64,000 nt of DNA from Streptomyces chattanoogensis (GTDB lineage Bacteria > Actinomycetota > Actinomycetes > Streptomycetales > Streptomycetaceae). The DNA lies in NCBI RefSeq assembly GCF_001294335.1, contig NZ_LGKG01000001.1, forward strand, positions 434,001-498,000. The letters run 5' to 3'. Shown piece after piece: positions 46,465 through 56,560 of the stretch. The translations under genes were made by a program, and so were the position numbers. A model generated the notes under the pieces. The model did no database searches, was not told the origin of the DNA, and worked only from the letters and a program-made list of their open reading frames with translations. The stretch's first letter is position 1; each line of letters begins with the position of its first letter.

Positions 46465-47697
46465 CTACACGTCCCGCTGCTCCTGGACGACGAAGGCGGC
46501 GGCGAGGGCGGCGGCGGTGACGCCGGCGAGGATCACCAGCGGTGTCCAGCCCTGCGGGCCGTCCGGGAGGAACGGAATGCCGTACAGCGTCGCCAGGGAG
46601 TTGGGGACGGAGTAGTTGATCAGCGCCTGGGAGAGCGACCTGAGGCTCTCCGAGCCGAGCATGAAGACCGCGAGCAGCATCGGCAGCAGGACCACACCGA
46701 ACAACGCGCTGATGGCGCCGGCGGAGTGCCGCAGCAGCGAGCCGACCGCCAGGGCCAGGAGGCCGAGCGTCGACACGTAGAGACCGGCGCCCACCGTCGC
46801 CCGGAGGAATTCGTCGGTCGTCGGCTCCCGGCCGTCCACCATGCCCGACATGGCGAGCGTGACGAGTGTCGTGGCCAGGGTCGTGATCACAAAGGCGAGC
46901 AGGAAGAACACGATCACCTTGGCGCCGAGCACCCGGGCCCGGCTGGGGCAGGCGGTCATGGTCGTACGGATCATGCCCGTTCCGTACTCGGAGGAGATCA
47001 CCAGGACGCCGAGCGGGATGATGCACAGGGTGCCCAGCATGACGCTGAAGTACCCGAAGGCGGGCTTCGGGTTGACCGCGTGGCCCGACATGGCGGTGGC
47101 GGTGAGCAGGCCGACGCCCACGATCAGCAGGACCATCACGCCCAGCGTCCAGATCGTCGAGCGCACCGAGCGGATCTTCGTCCACTCGGAGGCCAGGGCG
47201 TGGCCGAAGTGGGTGTTGTTCACCGGGATCGGGGAGACATAACCGGGTTGTCCGCCTTGCCAGTTGGCGGCCGGCTGGTGGGGCTGCTGCTGCGGCTGGG
47301 CCTGCGGGGGGACCGGGGGCCGGCCCTGCGGCTGCTGCTGCGGCTGGGGGGCCTGGGCCGGGGCGGCCTGGGCCTGGAGCATCATCGTGCCCGCGTCCCC
47401 GCCGGGGCCGTGCGCGGCCAGCGGCTGCGGCTGGGGCTGCTGCGGCTGCTGCTGGGGGAGCGGCTGGGCCTGAAGCATCATCGTGCCCGCCTCTTTGGCG
47501 AGCGTGGGGCCGGGGGCGGCCGGTGCCGGGGGCTGCTGCGCCTGGAGCATCATCGTGCCGGCTTCCTGGGCGGGCGCGGCGGCGGGCTGCTCCGGCTGGG
47601 GCGCGGTAGGCGGCATCGGCGGTGCGGCCGGCATCGGCTGCTGCGCGCCGGTCTCGTGCGGTCCGCGCTCAGGCTGCGGCTGCTGAGGGCTGGTCAT
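46465..47697 (-). CDS. ABC transporter permease with repeated GTMMLQA motifs in its N-terminal tail
   Basis: The 410-residue protein has a Gln/Pro/Ala-rich, disordered cytoplasmic N terminus of about 165 residues, then the ABC-2 type membrane domain (starting at the conserved EWTKIRSVRSTIWTLG, 171-186) with six helices. Three near-identical copies of (E/D)AGTMMLQAQ lie in the tail at 45-54, 69-78 and 101-110, with threonines T48, T72 and T104. Each fits a pThr-x-x-Leu pattern recognised by FHA domains. The start overlaps the ATPase stop (ATGA), so the two subunits are coupled. It is a paralogue of the permease at 49341-50114, which lacks the tail. Confidence 0.92.
   Translation of the reverse strand: MTSPQQPQPERGPHETGAQQPMPAAPPMPPTAPQPEQPAAAPAQEAGTMMLQAQQPPAPAAPGPTLAKEAGTMMLQAQPLPQQQPQQPQPQPLAAHGPGGDAGTMMLQAQAAPAQAPQPQQQPQGRPPVPPQAQPQQQPHQPAANWQGGQPGYVSPIPVNNTHFGHALASEWTKIRSVRSTIWTLGVMVLLIVGVGLLTATAMSGHAVNPKPAFGYFSVMLGTLCIIPLGVLVISSEYGTGMIRTTMTACPSRARVLGAKVIVFFLLAFVITTLATTLVTLAMSGMVDGREPTTDEFLRATVGAGLYVSTLGLLALAVGSLLRHSAGAISALFGVVLLPMLLAVFMLGSESLRSLSQALINYSVPNSLATLYGIPFLPDGPQGWTPLVILAGVTAAALAAAFVVQEQRDV
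47368..47565 (-). repeat. Three 30-bp repeats encoding AGTMMLQAQ
   Basis: The units lie at 47536-47565, 47464-47493 and 47368-47397 on the minus strand, spaced by 72 and 96 bases. On the plus strand each contains GGAGCATCATCGTGCC. The peptide is conserved while the Gln/Pro-rich spacers vary in length and sequence. Confidence 0.85.
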
Positions 47698-48893
47698 CGG
47701 GCTTCCTCGTTCTGCGGCATGGGCATGGCGGCGGGGGCGGCGGGCTGGGCACCCGGCGGCATGGGCGCGGCGGGCTGCGGCGGCTGCCCGTACGGGTGGG
47801 GTGCGCCGTAATGCTCGGGTGCCCCGTACGGGTGACCCGGCGCCTGGGCCGGCGGCGGGTAACCGGGTCCCGGAGCGGCGGGCGCCTGCGGGGCGTACGC
47901 GTACGGCTGGTGCGGCTGGCCCTGGCCGGGCGCATATCCGGCCGGCATCTGCTGCTGGAGGCCCGCCCGCTGGTCGGCCGTCGAGCGGTAGTCCACGGCG
48001 CCCTGGGTGAGCCGCATGTACGCCTCTTCCAGGGATGCCTGGTGCGGCGACAGCTCCCACAGCCGGACGTCGGCGTCATGCGCGAGATCGCTGATCCGGG
48101 GGAGCGGCAGCCCGGTCACCTTCAGCGCGCCGTCCGCCTCCGGCGTGACCTGTCCGCCCGCCTCGCCGATCGCCGCGGTCAGCTTCTCGCGCTGCTCGGG
48201 CTCGGTGTCGGGGGTACGGACCCGGGCGAAGTCGGCGGAGTTGGCCGAGATGAAATCCTTGACCGGCATGTCCGACAGCAGCTGCCCGCGGCCGATCACG
48301 ATCAAGTGCTCGGCGGTGAGCGCCATTTCGCTCATCAGGTGCGAGGAGACGAAGACCGTACGGCCCTCGGCCGCCAGCTGCTTCATCAGATTGCGGACCC
48401 AGAGGATGCCCTCGGGGTCGAGGCCGTTGACCGGCTCGTCGAAGAGCAGCACCTGCGGATCGCCGAGGAGCGCCGCGGCGATGCCCAGCCGCTGGCCCAT
48501 ACCGAGCGAGAAGCCCTTGGAACGCCGGTTGGCGACGCCCTGGAGGCCCACCACGCCGAGCACCTCGTCGACCCGGCCGGCCGGGATGCCGGAGAGCTGG
48601 GCGAGGCTCAGCAGGTGGTTGCGCGCGCTGCGGCCGCCGTGCACGGCCTTGGCGTCGATCAGGGCGCCCACCTGGCGGGGCGCGTTGGACAGCCTGCGGA
48701 AGGGACGGCCGGCGATGGTGGCGTGTCCTGAGGTGGGTGTGTCCAGCCCCAGGATCATCCGCATCGTGGTCGATTTGCCGGAGCCGTTGGGTCCCAGGAA
48801 GCCGGTAACGGTGCCCGGCCTGACCTGGAACGACAGGTTGTGTACGGCCGTCTTGGCGCCGTAGCGCTTCGTCAGGCCGACTGCCTCGATCAT
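47694..48893 (-). CDS. ABC transporter ATP-binding protein with Pro/Tyr-rich tail
   Basis: An ATPase of 399 residues. Walker A GPNGSGKSTT, signature SLGMGQRLG, Walker B LLFDEPVNGLDPEG and H-loop SSHLMSE are intact in the first 215 residues. A C-terminal domain (to about 310) is followed by a low-complexity tail of some 90 residues rich in Pro, Gly, Tyr, Ala and Gln, with repeated YGAP/HPYG units. The tail of this subunit and the N-terminal tail of its permease meet at the gene junction, so both cytoplasmic disordered regions could interact. The substrate is unknown. Confidence 0.93.
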   Translation of the reverse strand: MIEAVGLTKRYGAKTAVHNLSFQVRPGTVTGFLGPNGSGKSTTMRMILGLDTPTSGHATIAGRPFRRLSNAPRQVGALIDAKAVHGGRSARNHLLSLAQLSGIPAGRVDEVLGVVGLQGVANRRSKGFSLGMGQRLGIAAALLGDPQVLLFDEPVNGLDPEGILWVRNLMKQLAAEGRTVFVSSHLMSEMALTAEHLIVIGRGQLLSDMPVKDFISANSADFARVRTPDTEPEQREKLTAAIGEAGGQVTPEADGALKVTGLPLPRISDLAHDADVRLWELSPHQASLEEAYMRLTQGAVDYRSTADQRAGLQQQMPAGYAPGQGQPHQPYAYAPQAPAAPGPGYPPPAQAPGHPYGAPEHYGAPHPYGQPPQPAAPMPPGAQPAAPAAMPMPQNEEAR

Positions 48894-49340
48894 TCTCCGC
48901 CCCTCGCGTGGTGGTCGGGGCAGAGGCGCCCTCGTACCCCCGTGAGAGTTATGAGGCTATCGGTGCGTTGACGGTTCCCGTTAATCGGGAGAGCGGAGAG
49001 AGACGCGGGCCCCCACAGTTCTTCCCCACCCCCCGACGGGGAGGCGACGGGCTGTAGTGGCGGAGCCGTGGAGGCCCGGCGCCGCTGCCGAACAGCCCCG
49101 CGCAGCGGCACCGCCCGCCGCAGGCGCAACGTCGAGAAGACACCACGGCGGGAAAGCCGGAAACGTGGGGCGCGGTCAAGCGCAGCGGAGGGGCGCAGCG
49201 CCGAGAGGGCTCCGCGGCGGGAGAGTCGACAACGTACGGCCCAGGCAAAGCGCAGCGGACCGGCCGCAGGCGAACCCGGAGCAACCCTCACGGCGGCAAA
49301 GCCGAAAACGTACGGCCAAAGCCCAGCGCAGCGCCACGCA
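48894..49340. other. Intergenic between the two ABC operons
   Basis: About 450 bases that hold the degenerate repeat described separately and probably the promoter of the first ABC operon close to 48894-48960, where the DNA is less GC-rich (GAGAGTTATGAGGC). Long open frames cross it on both strands without usable starts or codon bias. Confidence 0.5.
49101..49335. repeat. Degenerate tandem repeat of about 70 bp, three and a half copies
   Basis: Units begin with CGGCGGSAAAGCCGRAAACG-like sequence at 49146, 49215 and 49291 (69- and 76-bp periods), each followed by a segment containing AAGCGCAGCGGA, and a partial copy (GCGCAGCGGCACC..., from about 49101) precedes them. Copies differ at many positions. 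Similar GC-rich intergenic repeats are dispersed in Streptomyces genomes as far as I remember. No coding role is apparent. Confidence 0.65.
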
Positions 49341-50114
49341 TCACGCATCGCGTTTCTCGAGCACCACGAACCCGCCCGCCAGTGCCGCCAGCGTCCAGGC
49401 GATCATGATGCCCAGGCCGCCCCAGGGGCCGTACGGCACATCGTCGACGGCTCTCGGCACCACCTGCATGATCTTCTGGCCGGCCTGGTCGGGAAGGTAG
49501 CGGCCGATTTTCCGGGTGGCCGAGACATTGCCGAGGATGTTGGAGATGAGGAAGAAGAAGGGCATGAGGATGCCCAGCGAGAGCATGGGGCTGCGCAGCA
49601 TCGCGGCGACGCCCATGGAGAACAGCGCGATCAGGGTCATATAGAGGCCGCCGCCGATCACGGCGCGCAGGACTCCGGGATCCCCGATGTCCGCGCGGTG
49701 GTCGCCCAGGGCCGCCTGGCCCGCGAAGAACGTCGCGAAACTCGTCGCCAGGCCCACGACGAGGACCAGTGCGGTGGCCACCAGCAGCTTGCAGAACAGG
49801 AAGGTGGCGCGCTGCGGTACGGCGGCGAGCGAGGCCCGGATCATGCCGGTGCTGTACTCGTTGGAGACCACCAGGACACCGAAGACGATCATGGCGAGCT
49901 GGCCCAGCCCCATTCCGGCGAAGCTGATGTTGGTGGGGTCGAAGGCGAACCGGGCGTGGGCCGACATCGAGGCGAAGTCGGTTCTGGCCAGGGTGCAGAT
50001 CAGGACGCCCAGGGCGATGGTGACCACCACGGCCGTGCCCAGGGTCCACACCGTCGACCGTACCGATCTGATCTTGGTCCATTCCGAGCGCAGGACCTGC
50101 GGGACCACCGCCAT
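49341..50114 (-). CDS. ABC transporter permease (paralogue without tail)
   Basis: A 257-residue ABC-2 type permease that starts directly with the cytoplasmic LRSEWTKIRSVRSTVWTLG motif and has six membrane helices. It aligns along its whole length with the membrane part of the protein from 46465-47697 (for example the shared segments EYxTGMIR and GxGLYxxTLxLxxxxVxxxLR), showing gene duplication. AAAGGAAG lies before ATG 50114, four bases after the ATPase stop. Confidence 0.93.
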   Translation of the reverse strand: MAVVPQVLRSEWTKIRSVRSTVWTLGTAVVVTIALGVLICTLARTDFASMSAHARFAFDPTNISFAGMGLGQLAMIVFGVLVVSNEYSTGMIRASLAAVPQRATFLFCKLLVATALVLVVGLATSFATFFAGQAALGDHRADIGDPGVLRAVIGGGLYMTLIALFSMGVAAMLRSPMLSLGILMPFFFLISNILGNVSATRKIGRYLPDQAGQKIMQVVPRAVDDVPYGPWGGLGIMIAWTLAALAGGFVVLEKRDA

Positions 50115-50118
50115 CGGG

Positions 50119-51135
50119 TCAGCTTCCTTTCCTCTGCCGCCGGTGCGCGTCCCAGTCGGCGCCCCAGCCTTCGGGCTGCACCGGCGGGCCGGCCGGCGGC
50201 GGCCCCGGGGGCCGCACCGCCACCCGCCGGTCCTCGTGTGCGTGGTACTCCACGGACGCGGCGGTGAGCTGCATGAACGCCTCTTCCAGTGAGGCCTGCC
50301 GGGGGCTCAGCTCATGCAGGACGACCCGGCCGCGGGCGGCCATCTCGCCCAGCCGGGCGGCCGGTACGCCGTCGACCTCCAGCGAGCCGTCGCCGACGGC
50401 CACCGCAGTGATGCCCTCGGCATGCAGCAGGTCCCGCAGCTGCTCCTGCTCCGGGGAGCGCATCCGGACGTACGAGCGGGAGTTCTCCCGGATGAACGCG
50501 GCCATCGAGGTGTCCGCCATCAGACGGCCCTGGCCGATCACGATCAAATGGTCGGCCGTGAGCGCCATTTCGCTCATAAGGTGCGAGGAGACGAAAACGG
50601 TGCGGCCCTGCGCCGCGAGGTCCTTCATCAGATGGCGGATCCAGTGGATGCCCTCGGGGTCGAGGCCGTTGACCGGCTCGTCGAAGAGCAGCACCTGCGG
50701 GTCGCCGAGGAGCGCCGCGGCGATGCCCAGCCGCTGGCCCATGCCGAGCGAGAAGCCCTTGGTGCGCTTCTTGGCGACCGAGGTCAGGCCCACGGTGTCC
50801 AGCACCTCGTCGACCCGGGCGCGCGGGATGCCGTTGCTCTGTGCCAGGCACAGGAGATGGTGGTAGGCGCTCCGGCCGCCGTGTATCGCCTTCGCGTCCA
50901 GCAGCGCGCCGATGGACGTCAGCGGATTCCGCAGGCGGCGGTAGTGCCGGCCGTCGATACGGACCGTGCCCTCGGTCGGGTTGTCCAGATCGAGCATCAT
51001 CCGCATGGTCGTCGACTTGCCCGCGCCGTTGGGGCCGAGGAAGCCGGTGACGATGCCGGGCCGCACCGTGCAGGTGAGGTGGTCCACCGCCACCTTGTCG
51101 CCGTAGTGCTTGGTCAGACCCTGGAGCTCGATCAT
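50119..51135 (-). CDS. ABC transporter ATP-binding protein (paralogue)
   Basis: A 338-residue ATPase, with Walker A GPNGAGKSTT, signature SLGMGQRLG, Walker B LLFDEPVNGLDPEG and H-loop SSHLMSE. The region GLGMGQ to HLMSE is nearly identical to the ATPase at 47694-48893, as is the DNA (for example around 50671-50720 and 48425-48475), pointing to recent duplication or gene conversion. Its C-terminal tail is short (about 40 residues) and not Tyr-rich. ATG 51135 gives the same N terminus MIEL/MIEA as the paralogue; an upstream in-frame start is less likely. Confidence 0.93.
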   Translation of the reverse strand: MIELQGLTKHYGDKVAVDHLTCTVRPGIVTGFLGPNGAGKSTTMRMMLDLDNPTEGTVRIDGRHYRRLRNPLTSIGALLDAKAIHGGRSAYHHLLCLAQSNGIPRARVDEVLDTVGLTSVAKKRTKGFSLGMGQRLGIAAALLGDPQVLLFDEPVNGLDPEGIHWIRHLMKDLAAQGRTVFVSSHLMSEMALTADHLIVIGQGRLMADTSMAAFIRENSRSYVRMRSPEQEQLRDLLHAEGITAVAVGDGSLEVDGVPAARLGEMAARGRVVLHELSPRQASLEEAFMQLTAASVEYHAHEDRRVAVRPPGPPPAGPPVQPEGWGADWDAHRRQRKGS

Positions 51136-51197
51136 GTACAGCACGCTAAGGGCGCCCCAGGACCCCCGCCACCGGGGCACGCGCCCCCGTCACACGA

Positions 51198-51239
51198 CCG
51201 CGCCCCCGTTCCGCCGCCAGTGGCGGAACGGGGGCGCGG
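51198..51239 (-). terminator. Terminator of filP
   Basis: An 18-bp perfect stem: CCGCGCCCCCGTTCCGCC (51198-51215) pairs with GGCGGAACGGGGGCGCGG (51222-51239), loop of six bases, 20 bases after the filP stop on the minus strand. Confidence 0.88.
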
Positions 51240-51259
51240 AAAGCCGGCAGCGGGGCCGG

Positions 51260-52198
51260 TCAGCGGCTCTGCTGGGCGGGGACGCCGCGGGAGATGGGCT
51301 CCTCCTCGCCGGGGGCGCCGGCCGCGGCCACCGCCGCACCGGTCAGCGTCGCCAGCATCTCGCGGACGTTGGTCAGCTGCGCGTTGATGGAGTCGCGGCG
51401 GTTGGTGAGGGCCGCGAGCTCGCGCTCGGATTCGCTGCGGATACGGTCGGCCTTCGCGTTGGCGTCGGCGACGATGTCCTCGGCCTGGCGCTGGGCGGTC
51501 TCCACCGTCTGGCGGGCCCGGCGCTCGGCGTCCGTCCGCAGCTTCTCGGCCTCCAGGCGCAGCTGCTCGGCGCGGTGCTCGATCTCGGCCAGACGCTTCT
51601 CCGCCTTGGCCTGACGCGAGGCCAGGTCGCGCTCGGACTGCTCGCGGCGCTTGGCGAGGTTGGTCTCGAAGTCCGCCGCCGCCTGCGCGGCCTTGGCCCG
51701 GGTCTCCTCGAAGAGGGAGTCCGCCTCCTCGCGCTTGGACTGCGCGTCCTTCTGCGCCTCGGCCCGCAGCGAGGCAGCCTCGCCCTTGGCCTTGTCGACG
51801 ATCCGGGCGCCCTCGTCCTCCGCCTTCGCCTTGCGCTCGGCGGCGAACGACTCGGCGTCGTTACGGACCTGCTGGGCAGCCGACTCGGCCAGCTCGCGGT
51901 GCTGCTCGGCGGCCCGGCGGGCCTCCTCGCGCAGGTCCTTGGCCTCCTCCTCAGCGAGACGGAGGATCTTCTCGACGCGCGCACCGAGGCCTGCGTAGGA
52001 CGGTTCGGCGTCGTTGACCTGAGCCTGGGCGTTCTGCGTCTCGAGGTGCAGCTCCTCGATCCGCTTTTCCAGCGACGTGATGCGGGCCAGCGCACTGTCG
52101 CGGTCAGCGACGAGCTTGGTAATGCGGTCGTCCACCTGACCGCGGTCGTAACCACGCCGCACGAGCTCGAAGCCGAAGGGGGAGGAAGTGTCGCTCAT
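51260..52198 (-). CDS. filP: Intermediate-filament-like coiled-coil protein FilP
   Basis: Cytoskeletal protein (312 residues) that forms filaments near growing hyphal tips and stiffens them, working with DivIVA and Scy. A short N-terminal DivIVA-like start (FELVRRGYDRGQVDD, about 10-24) leads into nearly continuous Ala/Glu/Arg-rich coiled coil from about 28 to 280, and a short Ala/Gly tail. Its position directly after scy on the same strand, and the length near 310 residues, match the S. coelicolor gene as I know it. A -10 box lies 41 bases upstream. Confidence 0.95.
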   Translation of the reverse strand: MSDTSSPFGFELVRRGYDRGQVDDRITKLVADRDSALARITSLEKRIEELHLETQNAQAQVNDAEPSYAGLGARVEKILRLAEEEAKDLREEARRAAEQHRELAESAAQQVRNDAESFAAERKAKAEDEGARIVDKAKGEAASLRAEAQKDAQSKREEADSLFEETRAKAAQAAADFETNLAKRREQSERDLASRQAKAEKRLAEIEHRAEQLRLEAEKLRTDAERRARQTVETAQRQAEDIVADANAKADRIRSESERELAALTNRRDSINAQLTNVREMLATLTGAAVAAAGAPGEEEPISRGVPAQQSR

Positions 52199-52238
52199 GG
52201 GGTTCCTGTCGAAAGAGACCGGTGAGGTGATAAGGGGA

Positions 52239-52265
52239 ATCCTAGGGGTCTTAACGGCGTGTCAT
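52239..52265 (-). promoter_or_regulatory. Putative filP promoter
   Basis: On the minus strand ATGACA (52265-52260) and TAGGAT (52244-52239) resemble -35 and -10 boxes separated by 15 bases, shorter than the usual 17. TAGGAT is a very good -10 hexamer. Transcription would start about 33 bases before the filP ATG. Confidence 0.45.
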
Positions 52266-52312
52266 CGAGTCGTTGCACGTTTGGAATGGAGAATGACCCC
52301 TCATTCGAGTGG

Positions 52313-55300
52313 CTACCCTTCAGGCGGCTTGCCACTCGAACGAGTTGCGCCCGCTCCCGCGGACGCCTTGACGCCCCCCTTGCCCTCCGCGCCGCCCGCG
52401 GGCGCCTCGAAGGACTCCAATGCCACCAATACGTCCTGAACGCGGGAGATTTCGGCGTTGATGTCCTCCCGCCGGCGCACCAGGACCTCCAGCTCGCGCT
52501 TCCCCTCCTCCACGATCCGGGCGGCCTCGGCCTCCGCCTCGGCACGCAACCGCTCCGCGTTGCGCTCCGCCTCGGCCCGCTTGTTCTGAGCTTCCTTGAT
52601 CAGACCCTCGGCCTTCTTGACCGCCGAGATCCGGACCTTGCTCGCCTCGCTGTTCGCCTCCGACAGCAGCCGGTCGGCCTTCTCCTTGGCCTCCACCTGC
52701 TGCGCGGTGGCCTGCGCGATGAGCTTGTCGACCCGCTCGCCGGCGTTCTTCATCGCCTCCGCCGACTCCCGGCGGGCCCGGTCGTGCAGCTCCTCGACCT
52801 CGCCCTCGACCCGGACCCGCAGCTCCTCGGCACGGTCCCGGATGGCGGTGGAGTCCCCGCGGGCCTCCTCCAGCAGGGTGTTGGCGTCCGTGCGGGCCTT
52901 CTCCACCCGCGCGTTGCCCTCCGCCGTCGCCTCGGTGACGATCCGGTCGGCCTCCTTGCGGGCCGCCCCGACCATCGTGTCGGCCTGCTCCTCGGCGGCC
53001 GTGGCCGTCTTGAGCGCCTCCTCCTGGGCCTTGGCGATGAGCTGGTCGGCCTGCTCGGCGGCGTCCCCGCGGCGCTTGGCGGCGTCCTTGCGGGCCTCGT
53101 CCAGCAGCCGGTCCGACTCCTGCTGGGCCTCCGTGCGCAGCCGCTCCGCCTCGGCCTCGGCGTCCTCCTTGACCTTCGCGGACTCGTTACGGGTGCGATT
53201 GGCGTGCTCCTGCGCGGCGGTGACCGTTTCGGCCGCGTCCGTCCGCATCCGGTCCGCCTCCGCGGTGGCCGCGGCCAGCATCTCGTCCGCCTGCCGGCGG
53301 GCCTCGGCCCGGGTACGGTCCGCGTCCTGCTCGGCGGTGGCGGTGGTCTTCGCCGCCTCCGTGCGCAGCCGCTCGGCCTCCGTACCGGCCTCCGCGATCA
53401 GCTCGTCGGCCTGCTGCGCGGCGTCCGACCGCGTCTTGTTGGCCGCCTTGCGCGCCTCGTCGCCGGTCTTCTCGGCGTCCGCCCGCGCCGTCTCGAGCGC
53501 CTCGGCCGCCTCGGCCCGCAGCCGCTCCGCGGTCCGGGACGCCTCGGCGACCAGGGCCTGAGCCTGCTGCTCGCCCTCCGAGCGCAGCCGGTCGGCGGCC
53601 TGCCGGGCCTCCTGGACCATGCGGTTCGCGTCGTCCTGCGCCGAAGAGGTGAGCTCGGTGGCCTCGGTGACGATCCGTTCGGCCTCGGTACGGGCCTCCG
53701 TGATCAGCGCATCGGCCTGCCCGGCGGCGTCCGACCGCATACGGTTCGCGTCGTCCCGGGCCTCCGCGCGGGCCCGCGCCGCGTCCTGCTCGCCCGACGC
53801 CAGCGCGTCGGACGCCTCGGTACGCAGCTGCTGCGCCTTCGCCGTGGCGTCCCCGACCAGCTTCTCGGCCTGTGCGGTCGCCTCCGACAGCAGCCGGTCC
53901 GCCTGCTCCGCGGCCTCCGACCGCGCCGCATTGGCGTCCCGCCGCGCCTCGTCCACGACGCCGGCCGCTTCCGCACGCAGCCGCTCGGCCTCCTCGAAGG
54001 CCTCCGCCACCGTCCGCTCGGCCAGCGACTTCGCGGCCTCCGACGCCTCTTGCGCGTCCCGCCGCAACCGCGTCGCGTCCTCCGAGGCACGCTCGCGCTC
54101 GTCGTAGGCGTCCGTGCGGACCCGGTCCGCCTCCTCCTGCGCCTCGCTCTTGGTGCGCTCCGCGGCATGCTCGGCGGCCGACCGCAGCCCGGCGATCTCC
54201 TGCTCGGCCTGCTCGTGCAGATCCGCGACCGAGTCCCGTACCTGCTGTGCGGTCTGCTCGGCCGCCGCGACCAGCTCGCCCGCGCGCCGGTCGGCCTCCT
54301 CGACCAGCCGCTCGGCCTCCTCCTGCGCCTCGCTCACCCGCGTACGGGCCGACGCCAGCAGCTCCTCGGACTGTTCCCGCGCCGCGGTGCGCTCCTGGTG
54401 GGCCTCCTCGCGGGCCTCGCCCAGCAGCTGCTCGGCCTCCCGGCGCCGCCGCGCGGCCTCCTCCTGGGCCTCGGCCAGCGCCTGCGCCGCCTCCGTACCC
54501 GTGCGCTCCGCGGCGGCCGCCGCCTCCGCACGTACGCGGTCCGCGGTCTCCTGCGCCTCGGCCCGCAGCCGCTCCGCCTCGGCCGCCGCCTCGCTGCGCA
54601 GCCGTGCGGCCACCGTCTCGCTCTCGGCGCGCGCCGACGACGCGTCCGTGGCGGCCTCGGTGCGCAGCCGCTCGGCCTCCTCCTCGGCCTCCTGCTGCAG
54701 CGTCCGCCGGCGCTCGGCGGCCTCCGCCTTGAGCCGGGCCGCCTCCTCCTGGGTCTCCCGGCGCAGCCGCTCGGCCTCCGCGCGCGCCTCGCGCAGCTCC
54801 TCCTCGGCGGCGGTGACCCTGCTCTCGGCCTCGCTGCGCAGCCGGTCCAGCTCGGCCTGCGCCTCGGCCCGCTTCTCCTCGACGGCCCGCTCGGTCTCCG
54901 CGCGCAGCTCCTGGGCGCTCTCCTCGGCCGTCGTCGTCAGCGTCTCGGCGGCCTGGGTGCCCTCCAGCAGCAGCTGCTCGGCCTCCGCACGGGCGCGCTC
55001 CAGTGCCTCCTCGGCCTGTCGGCGCAGCGCCGAGGCCCGCTCGATGGCCTCGGTCCGTACCCGCTCGCTCTCCGCGACGGCACCCGAACGGGTCTCCTCC
55101 GCATCGGCCTTGGCCTTGCCCAGCAGATCCTCGGCGGACCCGGCCGCCTCCTCGATCTGCTGTACGGCCTCCCGGCGCGCCTCGCTGCGGATCCGCTCGC
55201 CCTCGGCGACCGCGTCCGCCCGCAGCTGCTCCGCCTCCCCGCGCAGCCGCCGTGCCTCCTCCTGGAGTTCGACGGTCTTGGCGCGGTACTCCTTGGTGTC

Positions 55301-56560
55301 GTCCTTCGCCGCGCCCTTGAGCTGCGCCGCGGTGTCATGCGCCTCTTCACGCAGCCGGTCCGCCTCGGACTCGGCGTCCTTGCGCAGCCGTTCGGCCTCC
55401 TCGGCGGCGGCCTTGGTGGTGGCCTTGGCGTCCTCCGACGCCTTGTTCAGCACCTCTTCGGCCGTACGCGCCGCCTTGGCCAGCTGCGCCGCGGAGTCCT
55501 CCGCGACCTTGGCCCGCGCGCTCTCCTGTGCCTCGGCGACCAGCCGCTCGGCCTCCGTGCGGGCGTCCGCGCGCAGTTGCTCGGCCTCGGCCTTGAGCGC
55601 CTCGGCCTCCTTGGTGGCCTCGCCGACCAGCCGCGCGATCTCCGCCTTCGCCGTACGGGTGCGCTGCTCGTTCTCCGACTCGGCGGCCGACAGCCGCTTG
55701 CCCGCGGTCTGCTGGGCCTCCTCGACCAGCTTCTCGGCCTCGGCGCGCGCCTCGCGCAGCGCCGTATCCGCTTCCTGGACCCGCGCCTCGGCGGCGCGTG
55801 TCAGCTCGGCCGCCTGACGGCGCGCCTCCTCCGACTCCGTGCCGGCCGAGGTCCGCAGCTGCTCGGCCTGATCGGTGGCCTCCTGGGCCTGGTTGGAGGC
55901 GGCGGTCAGGAGCCGCTCGGCGTCGGTGCGCGCCCGGCGCAGGATGGATTCGGCTTCGGTGCGGGCCTCTTCGGCCGCCGAGCCGAGCCGCTCGCGGGCC
56001 TGCTCGGCCAGCCGGTGCGCCTCGGCCCGTGCGGCGGCCAGCGCCTGCTCGGCCTCCGCCCGGGACTCCTCCATGAGGCGGCGGGCCTGCGACTCGGTGC
56101 GGGCCCGCAGCTGTTCGGCCCAGGCGACGTTCTCGTTGACATGCGACTCGACGGTCTGGCGGCGCTCGTTGAGCTCCTCGTCGAGCCGCTGCCTGCGGGT
56201 GACCGCCTCGGCGTGCAGCTCGGCCTCGAGCCGGGACTGCCGCTCGGCCTGCTCCTGGAGCAGCCGCTGGGTCTGCGCCCGCGCCTCGCGCAGCTCCCGC
56301 TCCGCGTCCGACCGCAGCTGGTCCGCCTGGATCTGCGCATTGCGCAGCAGCTGCTCGGCCTGATGGCTGACGTTGTCGTAGGCAGGGCGGGCCGCGAGGT
56401 TGCGGCGCGCCTCATGCAGCTTGGCGCGCAACACCTCGACCTGGTAGCCGAGGTCGTCGGCGTGCTGGACGGCCTTGTCCCGCTCGGTCTTCAGCCGCTC
56501 CATCTCGGCCTCGAACTGCGAGAGGTGGTCGTCAGCCTCGTAGCGGTCGTTGCCCCGCAC
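52313..56560 (-). CDS. scy: Polarised growth scaffold Scy
   Basis: A very long coiled-coil protein (1415 residues) that organises the tip-organising centre with DivIVA and FilP in Streptomyces hyphae. The N terminus (to about residue 60) is a heptad coiled coil; most of the rest is Ala/Glu/Arg/Lys-rich repeats of the form EAERLRxEAxxxAxRxRxEA with long-period units of 51 residues (right-handed hendecad-type coil). It is about 90 residues longer than the S. coelicolor protein as I recall. The start is GTG 56560. The repetitive DNA also opens a 1514-codon frame on the other strand, which is an artefact. Confidence 0.95.
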   Translation of the reverse strand: MRGNDRYEADDHLSQFEAEMERLKTERDKAVQHADDLGYQVEVLRAKLHEARRNLAARPAYDNVSHQAEQLLRNAQIQADQLRSDAERELREARAQTQRLLQEQAERQSRLEAELHAEAVTRRQRLDEELNERRQTVESHVNENVAWAEQLRARTESQARRLMEESRAEAEQALAAARAEAHRLAEQARERLGSAAEEARTEAESILRRARTDAERLLTAASNQAQEATDQAEQLRTSAGTESEEARRQAAELTRAAEARVQEADTALREARAEAEKLVEEAQQTAGKRLSAAESENEQRTRTAKAEIARLVGEATKEAEALKAEAEQLRADARTEAERLVAEAQESARAKVAEDSAAQLAKAARTAEEVLNKASEDAKATTKAAAEEAERLRKDAESEADRLREEAHDTAAQLKGAAKDDTKEYRAKTVELQEEARRLRGEAEQLRADAVAEGERIRSEARREAVQQIEEAAGSAEDLLGKAKADAEETRSGAVAESERVRTEAIERASALRRQAEEALERARAEAEQLLLEGTQAAETLTTTAEESAQELRAETERAVEEKRAEAQAELDRLRSEAESRVTAAEEELREARAEAERLRRETQEEAARLKAEAAERRRTLQQEAEEEAERLRTEAATDASSARAESETVAARLRSEAAAEAERLRAEAQETADRVRAEAAAAAERTGTEAAQALAEAQEEAARRRREAEQLLGEAREEAHQERTAAREQSEELLASARTRVSEAQEEAERLVEEADRRAGELVAAAEQTAQQVRDSVADLHEQAEQEIAGLRSAAEHAAERTKSEAQEEADRVRTDAYDERERASEDATRLRRDAQEASEAAKSLAERTVAEAFEEAERLRAEAAGVVDEARRDANAARSEAAEQADRLLSEATAQAEKLVGDATAKAQQLRTEASDALASGEQDAARARAEARDDANRMRSDAAGQADALITEARTEAERIVTEATELTSSAQDDANRMVQEARQAADRLRSEGEQQAQALVAEASRTAERLRAEAAEALETARADAEKTGDEARKAANKTRSDAAQQADELIAEAGTEAERLRTEAAKTTATAEQDADRTRAEARRQADEMLAAATAEADRMRTDAAETVTAAQEHANRTRNESAKVKEDAEAEAERLRTEAQQESDRLLDEARKDAAKRRGDAAEQADQLIAKAQEEALKTATAAEEQADTMVGAARKEADRIVTEATAEGNARVEKARTDANTLLEEARGDSTAIRDRAEELRVRVEGEVEELHDRARRESAEAMKNAGERVDKLIAQATAQQVEAKEKADRLLSEANSEASKVRISAVKKAEGLIKEAQNKRAEAERNAERLRAEAEAEAARIVEEGKRELEVLVRRREDINAEISRVQDVLVALESFEAPAGGAEGKGGVKASAGAGATRSSGKPPEG

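Follow-up and report, generated by a model that had tools for sequence, protein, structure and literature searches.

A probable docking arm on a Streptomyces ABC exporter: a clade-limited array of short motifs in a disordered permease tail

Arrays of short linear motifs have been well studied in eukaryotes, and both repeated docking motifs and docking on phosphothreonine are known kinds of protein interaction; to our knowledge, few such arrays have been described in bacterial transporters. In mycobacteria, FhaA (with MviN and CwlM) reads a single phosphothreonine within a flexible region. Among ABC exporters, the closest described system is Rv1747 of Mycobacterium tuberculosis, whose FHA-linker part condenses upon phosphorylation by PknF and which forms clusters (PMC9312465), and the FHA protein FhaA of mycobacteria has interaction partners among the proteins of envelope synthesis, under PknA/PknB control (PMC7164672). 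In Streptomyces coelicolor, SCO5393 is an ABC ATPase with lower expression in the absence of sigma-E (PMC10771440) and SCO5395 appears among listed genes as an ABC ATPase (PMC4340878). These articles, like the phosphoproteome study discussed below, are cited from the parts of them that were available to us.

The locus described here belongs to Streptomyces chattanoogensis and encodes an ABC transporter whose permease carries three near-identical copies of a short motif on an N-terminal tail. The window, that is, the whole 64,000-nucleotide stretch of DNA that was analysed (part of a contig called C1 below, with positions counted from the first letter of the stretch), holds the following features:

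46465..47697, minus strand: ABC-2 type permease with motif-bearing N-terminal tail, 410 aa from its ATG; PF12679 and PF12730 above cut-off
47209..47697, minus strand: Gln/Pro-rich disordered N-terminal tail, about residues 1-163, from pLDDT and composition
47536..47565, minus strand: motif copy 1, EAGTMMLQAQ, with Thr48, in the permease tail
47464..47493, minus strand: motif copy 2, EAGTMMLQAQ, with Thr72, in the permease tail
47368..47397, minus strand: motif copy 3, DAGTMMLQAQ, with Thr104, in the permease tail
46465..47208, minus strand: transmembrane core of the permease, from the structure model and fold matches
47694..48893, minus strand: partner ABC ATPase, 399 aa, with Tyr/Pro-rich C-terminal tail; PF00005
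49341..50114, minus strand: paralogous permease without tail, from profile search and sequence reading
50119..51138, minus strand: paralogous ABC ATPase with short Pro-rich C-terminal extension, from profile search and sequence reading
51260..52198, minus strand: FilP-type coiled-coil protein; NCBIfam matches weak, below cut-off
52313..56560, minus strand: polarized growth protein Scy; NCBIfam NF041483, 1917 bits, cut-off 1040

By its profile matches, the pair formed by the permease and its partner ATPase, with both domains encoded together, is an ABC-2 type ABC exporter: the permease scores 39.7 bits against PF12679 and 34.6 bits against PF12730 and the ATPase 93.1 bits against PF00005, all above the cut-offs, and the permease ATG overlaps the end of the ATPase gene by 4 bases. 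Among solved folds, the permease model matches the exporter PmtCD best (E 2.9e-4); NosFY and others come next, with weaker E-values. The best NCBIfam matches of the transporter are galliderm_ABC, drrA and lanti_perm_MutG, with NCBIfam matches that stay below their own cut-offs (for the ATPase, 25 shown of 181; for the permease, 1/1). On its profile score, the gene at 52313..56560 is identified with certainty as scy, and the coiled-coil gene at 51260..52198 is presumably filP; we further take SCO5393 and SCO5395 to be the S. coelicolor orthologues at this locus. Both scy and filP adjoin the transporter in 16/16 loci compared, which come from array, single-copy and motif-free genomes; one of these 16 (L174) is without the second ATPase/permease pair, and at locus L171 the permease is only a weak match, its tail having been read in L093. 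For this constant neighbourhood of an ABC transporter with tip-growth genes (46465-56560 and 16 related loci), we met no discussion in the parts of the literature available to us.

A preliminary description of this DNA, made from the letters and their open reading frames, had reported three near-identical (E/D)AGTMMLQAQ copies in a Gln/Pro-rich disordered permease N terminus, each containing Thr-x-x-Leu, and these points hold. Read from the open reading frame, EAGTMMLQAQ, EAGTMMLQAQ and DAGTMMLQAQ place their Thr at T48, T72 and T104, the only ones among the 8 Thr of the tail (residues 1-166) to be followed at +3 by an aliphatic residue (T-x-x-[LIVM]). The longest word that occurs three times in the tail has 9 aa, against a maximum of 6 in 5000 shuffles of the tail. 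Disorder is suggested both by composition and by the AlphaFold model, in which pLDDT stays below 50 at residues 1-22 and 30-151 and secondary structure starts no earlier than residue 164, and the motif copies fall inside this modelled structure-free tail. The same description had credited the partner ATPase with a Tyr/Pro-rich tail of its own and had seen neither tail in the paralogous pair. The ATPase tail is indeed present, but it is not tied to the array, because it also occurs in loci without the motif; likewise, the paralogous permease does lack a tail, whereas the paralogous ATPase (50119-51138) has at its C terminus some 45 additional Pro-rich residues, a stretch that is longer in some relatives. 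Two other elements recur: many array tails have PLAAHGPG in front of their last motif copy, and in nearly all tails seen SPIPV stands directly before the permease core.

Homologues were sampled as the best 120 of 2903 matches, which are related sequences and yield non-independent counts. A start with MTSP is found in 76 of these 120, whose tails hold 246 motif copies in total (1 copy in 2 tails, 2 in 4, 3 in 44 and 4 in 26), and a wider set of 78 tails, which includes two entries starting at a motif Met, holds 249 copies, every one an exact G-T-M-x-L. In these 78 tails (from the best 120 of 2903), no stretch lies one fixed position off G-T-M-x-L, in a scan that a copy with two changes would escape, and no otherwise intact copy has Ser or Val in place of Thr. 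Position +2 is free (M, T, L, V, I, A or F) and successive copies lie 15 to 59 residues apart; in the rest of the tails, Thr accounts for 349/11786 residues and T-x-x-[LIVM] occurs one further time. The motif had been said to be kept while the spacers vary, and loss of the Thr or Leu from an otherwise persisting motif had been named as a result that would refute the proposal. No such loss is seen beside the 249 exact copies, while the spacers diverge and both position +2 and the copy number are variable.

Such identity could in principle be neutral, if recent repeat expansion or gene conversion had multiplied a low-complexity sequence whose copies resemble each other through shared ancestry only. 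Gln/Pro-rich tails do expand easily, the copy number varies, and Thr codons are more uniform in the motif than in the core (0.86 vs 0.62, mostly ACG). However, in a comparison of 16 distinct genomes, the synonymous-codon identity of the motif is 0.732 within genes and 0.735 between genomes, thus equal on both scales and close to the 0.708 of the core (averages that cover different residue mixes in motif and core), and the 78 tails (best 120 of 2903) show diverging spacers and no decayed copies, on which grounds we regard a neutral origin as highly improbable. As the synonymous codons of the motif turn over approximately as in the core, conservation bears on the protein rather than reflecting recently duplicated DNA, and the motif copies are old and maintained by selection on the protein, neither recent nor homogenised. 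For the same reason, namely a synonymous identity in the motif similar to that of the core, an element acting at the DNA or RNA level was considered and judged unlikely, with Thr codons and Glu codons (the latter less uniform in the motif than in the core, 0.56 vs 0.94) as deviations.

The nucleotide sequence of the motif also invites a translational explanation, because (K/R)(E/D)AGTMM encodes an AAGGAGG-like sequence about 8 bases before ATGATG, and internal starts at these sites would produce nested shorter permeases. Consistent with this, 31 of the best 120 homologues (2903 matches) have, judging by their first residues, a motif Met as their start, and the mean anti-Shine-Dalgarno pairing energy, computed with what we assume to be the appropriate anti-Shine-Dalgarno string, is -7.8 at 52 motifs vs -5.6 at 16 true starts. 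Yet selection for Shine-Dalgarno strength ahead of the motif Met was not found, 298/300 sets of synonymous draws pairing more strongly than the observed sequence, and internal starts would need neither a Thr before the Met nor a Leu after it, when Leu stands at +3 in 249/249 copies. In addition, the rare codon GAA replaces GAG at the motif Glu, being used at 11/36 of the Glu codons at -3 vs 7/154 elsewhere in the genes (16 genomes); GAA weakens the Shine-Dalgarno-like site before the internal ATG, which seems compatible with possible selection against internal starts, inheritance from an ancestral copy being a possible alternative. The tails of the 31 entries (P0012, P0013, P0018 and 28 others) have probably been shortened by gene calling. 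Internal starts thus appear disfavoured by codon choice, and we hold nested permeases to be an improbable purpose of the motif.

Across the genus, at least two clustered matches to the motif pattern, which requires LQ and would miss some variants, are found in 17/392 genomes, and all 17 proved on reading to be this permease; in 245 genomes of the order, pattern matches come from one genus of eight. The motif is without trace in 38/39 orthologues read from other genomes (21/21 loci and 17/18), most of which have short tails, and the one exception, in genome G086, holds the single copy RQDEGTMMLN; a second single-copy genome, G263, groups with it (100/100). The array is therefore confined to part of the genus, next to a lineage with one copy, and the 38/39 motif-free orthologues outside the array clade imply that the proposed interaction is dispensable or clade-specific. 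Single matches in other genomes, read at 20 loci, were all unrelated to this permease. Other proteins bearing the motif were also looked for in the genome itself, where a GTM-x-[LF] DNA pattern gave 44 matches; among the 30 loci inspected, a Gln/Pro-rich tail surrounds the three permease copies and no other match, the remainder being by eye ordinary protein sequence or unused frames, and the idea of further motif-bearing proteins was rejected. At one locus, L180 of genome G558, the start of the reading frame (QRQMCIRARHG, ahead of a GTVVLGA stretch) resembles an assembly artefact and leaves the copy count unsure.

The history of the tail can be set against that of the membrane core to which it is attached. 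A tree of three neighbouring proteins (28 loci) places 16 array genomes on one side of a weak branch (38/58). In the permease-core tree (49 rows), the array genomes are not grouped in this way: the cores of G137, G175, G433 and G518 lie apart from the other 17, and the starred branches force at least two changes, the row of G433 being long and uncertain in its placement. The neighbour-protein tree pairs G433 with G064 as sisters (100/98); along their DNA, identity falls from 0.94-0.99 in the flank upstream to 0.77-0.91 in windows of the tail and 0.66-0.77 in those of the core, and returns to 0.90-0.99 from the stop codon on. At the level of groups, core identity averages 0.60 between the main group and the four outlying genomes (48 pairs) and 0.74 within the main group (66 pairs), whereas no such difference exists for the ATPase DNA (0.89 and 0.88) or for the tail (0.68 and 0.68); the outlying cores do not form one class, with identities of 0.60 to 0.95 among themselves. 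On these identities and trees, the simplest reading is that the membrane core was replaced by recombination, more than once, and that the tail was retained. Some cores could alternatively have diverged fast without any exchange, but identity drops close to the tail-core junction and recovers at the stop codon, and these edges favour exchange. A core replaced under a tail that stayed would mean that the tail behaves as an autonomous module, and its retention over replaced cores suggests that it serves a putative partner that does not depend on the core. When locus L209 (G433) is set beside L171 (G064), the closest pair, whose flanks are near-identical, the stretch from the tail junction to the stop codon appears to have given way to a divergent core allele, and similarly at L172, L208 and L210.

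The modelled disorder, the conservation at the protein level, the changes in copy number and the limited distribution are direct observations, and we think it likely that they describe a flexible cytosolic arm, in which a multivalent [ED]-x-G-T-M-x-L-Q array serves to dock the ABC exporter to a partner in the cytosol. With its 1-4 copies, this array would stay together as a unit through exchanges of the membrane core below; its copies would bind the putative cytosolic partner, and the presence of several of them may raise avidity or cluster the transporter. A search of solved structures with the motif peptide gave no match.

How the motif would be bound admits two readings, the first of which dispenses with phosphorylation: docking would be constitutive, with T-M-x-L lying as a short strand or turn in a groove of the partner, for example a tip-growth or membrane-associated protein. 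Gly at -1 and Met at +1 are as invariant as Thr and Leu (249 copies, best 120 of 2903) and +2 is free, as expected of a pocket-binding motif; the Thr is thereby left without special status, and a groove more specific than the FHA rule alone is indicated. The adjoining scy and filP are in line with such a partner, but they also lie beside motif-free transporters, and a Thr that is never seen replaced by Ser or Val (78 tails, best 120 of 2903) is less readily accommodated. We view constitutive docking as a serious possibility, if one that we would not yet favour outright.

In the second reading, T48, T72 and T104 are the targets of a Hanks-type kinase, and the phosphorylated tail is then bound by an FHA protein that clusters the transporter; this is possible though on balance doubtful. 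Its candidate readers, put forward just as tentatively, would be one of two FHA-FHA-ABC transporters or a protein of FhaA/FhaB type. In the available part of PMC7164672, the pLogo of PknA-dependent sites of M. tuberculosis shows an acid at -1, at -3 to -6 and at +7, proline at -1 and at +2, Leu/Val at +3 and a basic residue at +4. An acid at -3 in 242/249 copies and a Leu at +3 in 249/249, following a Thr within a segment modelled as disordered, match two features of this motif, and the lack of Ser for Thr in otherwise intact copies is also in keeping with the reading; by contrast, Pro at +2 occurs in 0/249 copies and Lys/Arg at +4 in 5/249, and the invariant Gly at -1 and Met at +1 are not explained by the pThr+3 rule. 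Acids elsewhere before the Thr occur in 0/249 copies at -1, 18/249 at -4, 0/249 at -5 and 0/249 at -6 (best 120 of 2903).

The proteins that this second reading calls for are at hand in the genome, where profile search yielded 40 kinase matches (37 over cut-off) and 10 FHA matches, two of the proteins combining two FHA domains with an ABC ATPase (the ABC part by eye), and FHA domains were found in 22/22 genomes searched. None of these kinase or FHA matches lies on contig C1, however, and FHA number does not track the array, with 8-11 matches in 11 array genomes and 8-12 in 11 others (ten motif-free and the single-copy G263); an FHA expansion in array genomes was rejected on these counts. The two large proteins (L002 and L003, on contigs C112 and C173) are by eye of Rv1747 type, an ABC ATPase and a membrane part coming after two FHA domains. 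Another FHA protein (L010, contig C196) begins, by eye, with a very long region rich in Pro/Gln and also has zinc-ribbon-like cysteines.

With regard to phosphorylation itself, the phosphoproteome of S. rimosus comprises 417 sites (data set PXD034565), and its main text, in the part available, contains no match for 'ABC transporter', 'permease' or 'FHA' (PMC9600765), which speaks against the phosphorylation reading as far as that text goes. S. rimosus carries the array, and its protein P0038 is predicted to give the tryptic peptides EAGTMMLQAQQPPAAAPGK (19 aa) and EAGTMMLQAQAAPQGAPLPPQGAPK (25 aa), when the predicted peptides of the window permease itself, of 57 and 106 residues, would hardly be detectable; the question could be settled by re-analysis of the public data. 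As regards the earlier proposal that Ser/Thr phosphorylation regulates the transporter, docking-type motifs in a variable disordered tail are well supported, whereas the FHA docking step remains a tentative part of it. Phosphorylation of the motif Thr and its reading by an FHA protein may be entertained with the same reserve, and if this step were right, Rv1747 would be the nearest working model, with the FHA reader acting here in trans. Going further, one may picture a portable docking module, in which GTMxL was acquired beside polarisome genes, multiplied and kept as an address tag over cores swapped for divergent alleles more than once, and in which a Hanks-kinase/FHA switch clusters the transporter at the hyphal tip; as a whole, we deem this scenario unlikely.

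Overall, the array is sharply defined and clade-limited, and its natural variants (0, 1, 2, 3 or 4 copies, on usual or outlying cores) would serve as ready controls for an experiment on tail function. Should the Thr prove to be a phosphosite, a concrete membrane target beside tip-growth genes would be at hand for the Hanks kinases and FHA proteins of Streptomyces. In the open-licence literature, we found no paper for the motif strings, nor for the combination of short linear motif, disorder, ABC transporter and Streptomyces, and no description of this variant, an array borne by an ABC permease tail and retained across apparent core exchanges.

From a comparative perspective, the transporter resembles ABC-2/lantibiotic-immunity and DrrA-like exporters by its ABC2_membrane_2/_4 and ABC_tran domains, which score above cut-off, and differs from them by the motif tail of its permease, which is an addition. 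FhaA, MviN and CwlM rely on one site, whereas the window permease has an array of identical motifs, whose Thr phosphorylation is only putative. As for Rv1747, both are ABC exporters with a disordered cytosolic segment; however, Rv1747 has FHA domains of its own, which the Pfam search did not find in the window permease and ATPase, the kinase gene that adjoins an Rv1747-type transporter has no counterpart here (0/40 kinase matches on contig C1), and the array of the window permease contrasts with Rv1747, for which a repeated identical motif is not described in the available part of PMC9312465. With neither an FHA domain of its own nor an adjoining kinase, the window transporter is not an Rv1747-type member; by analogy, it may work like Rv1747.
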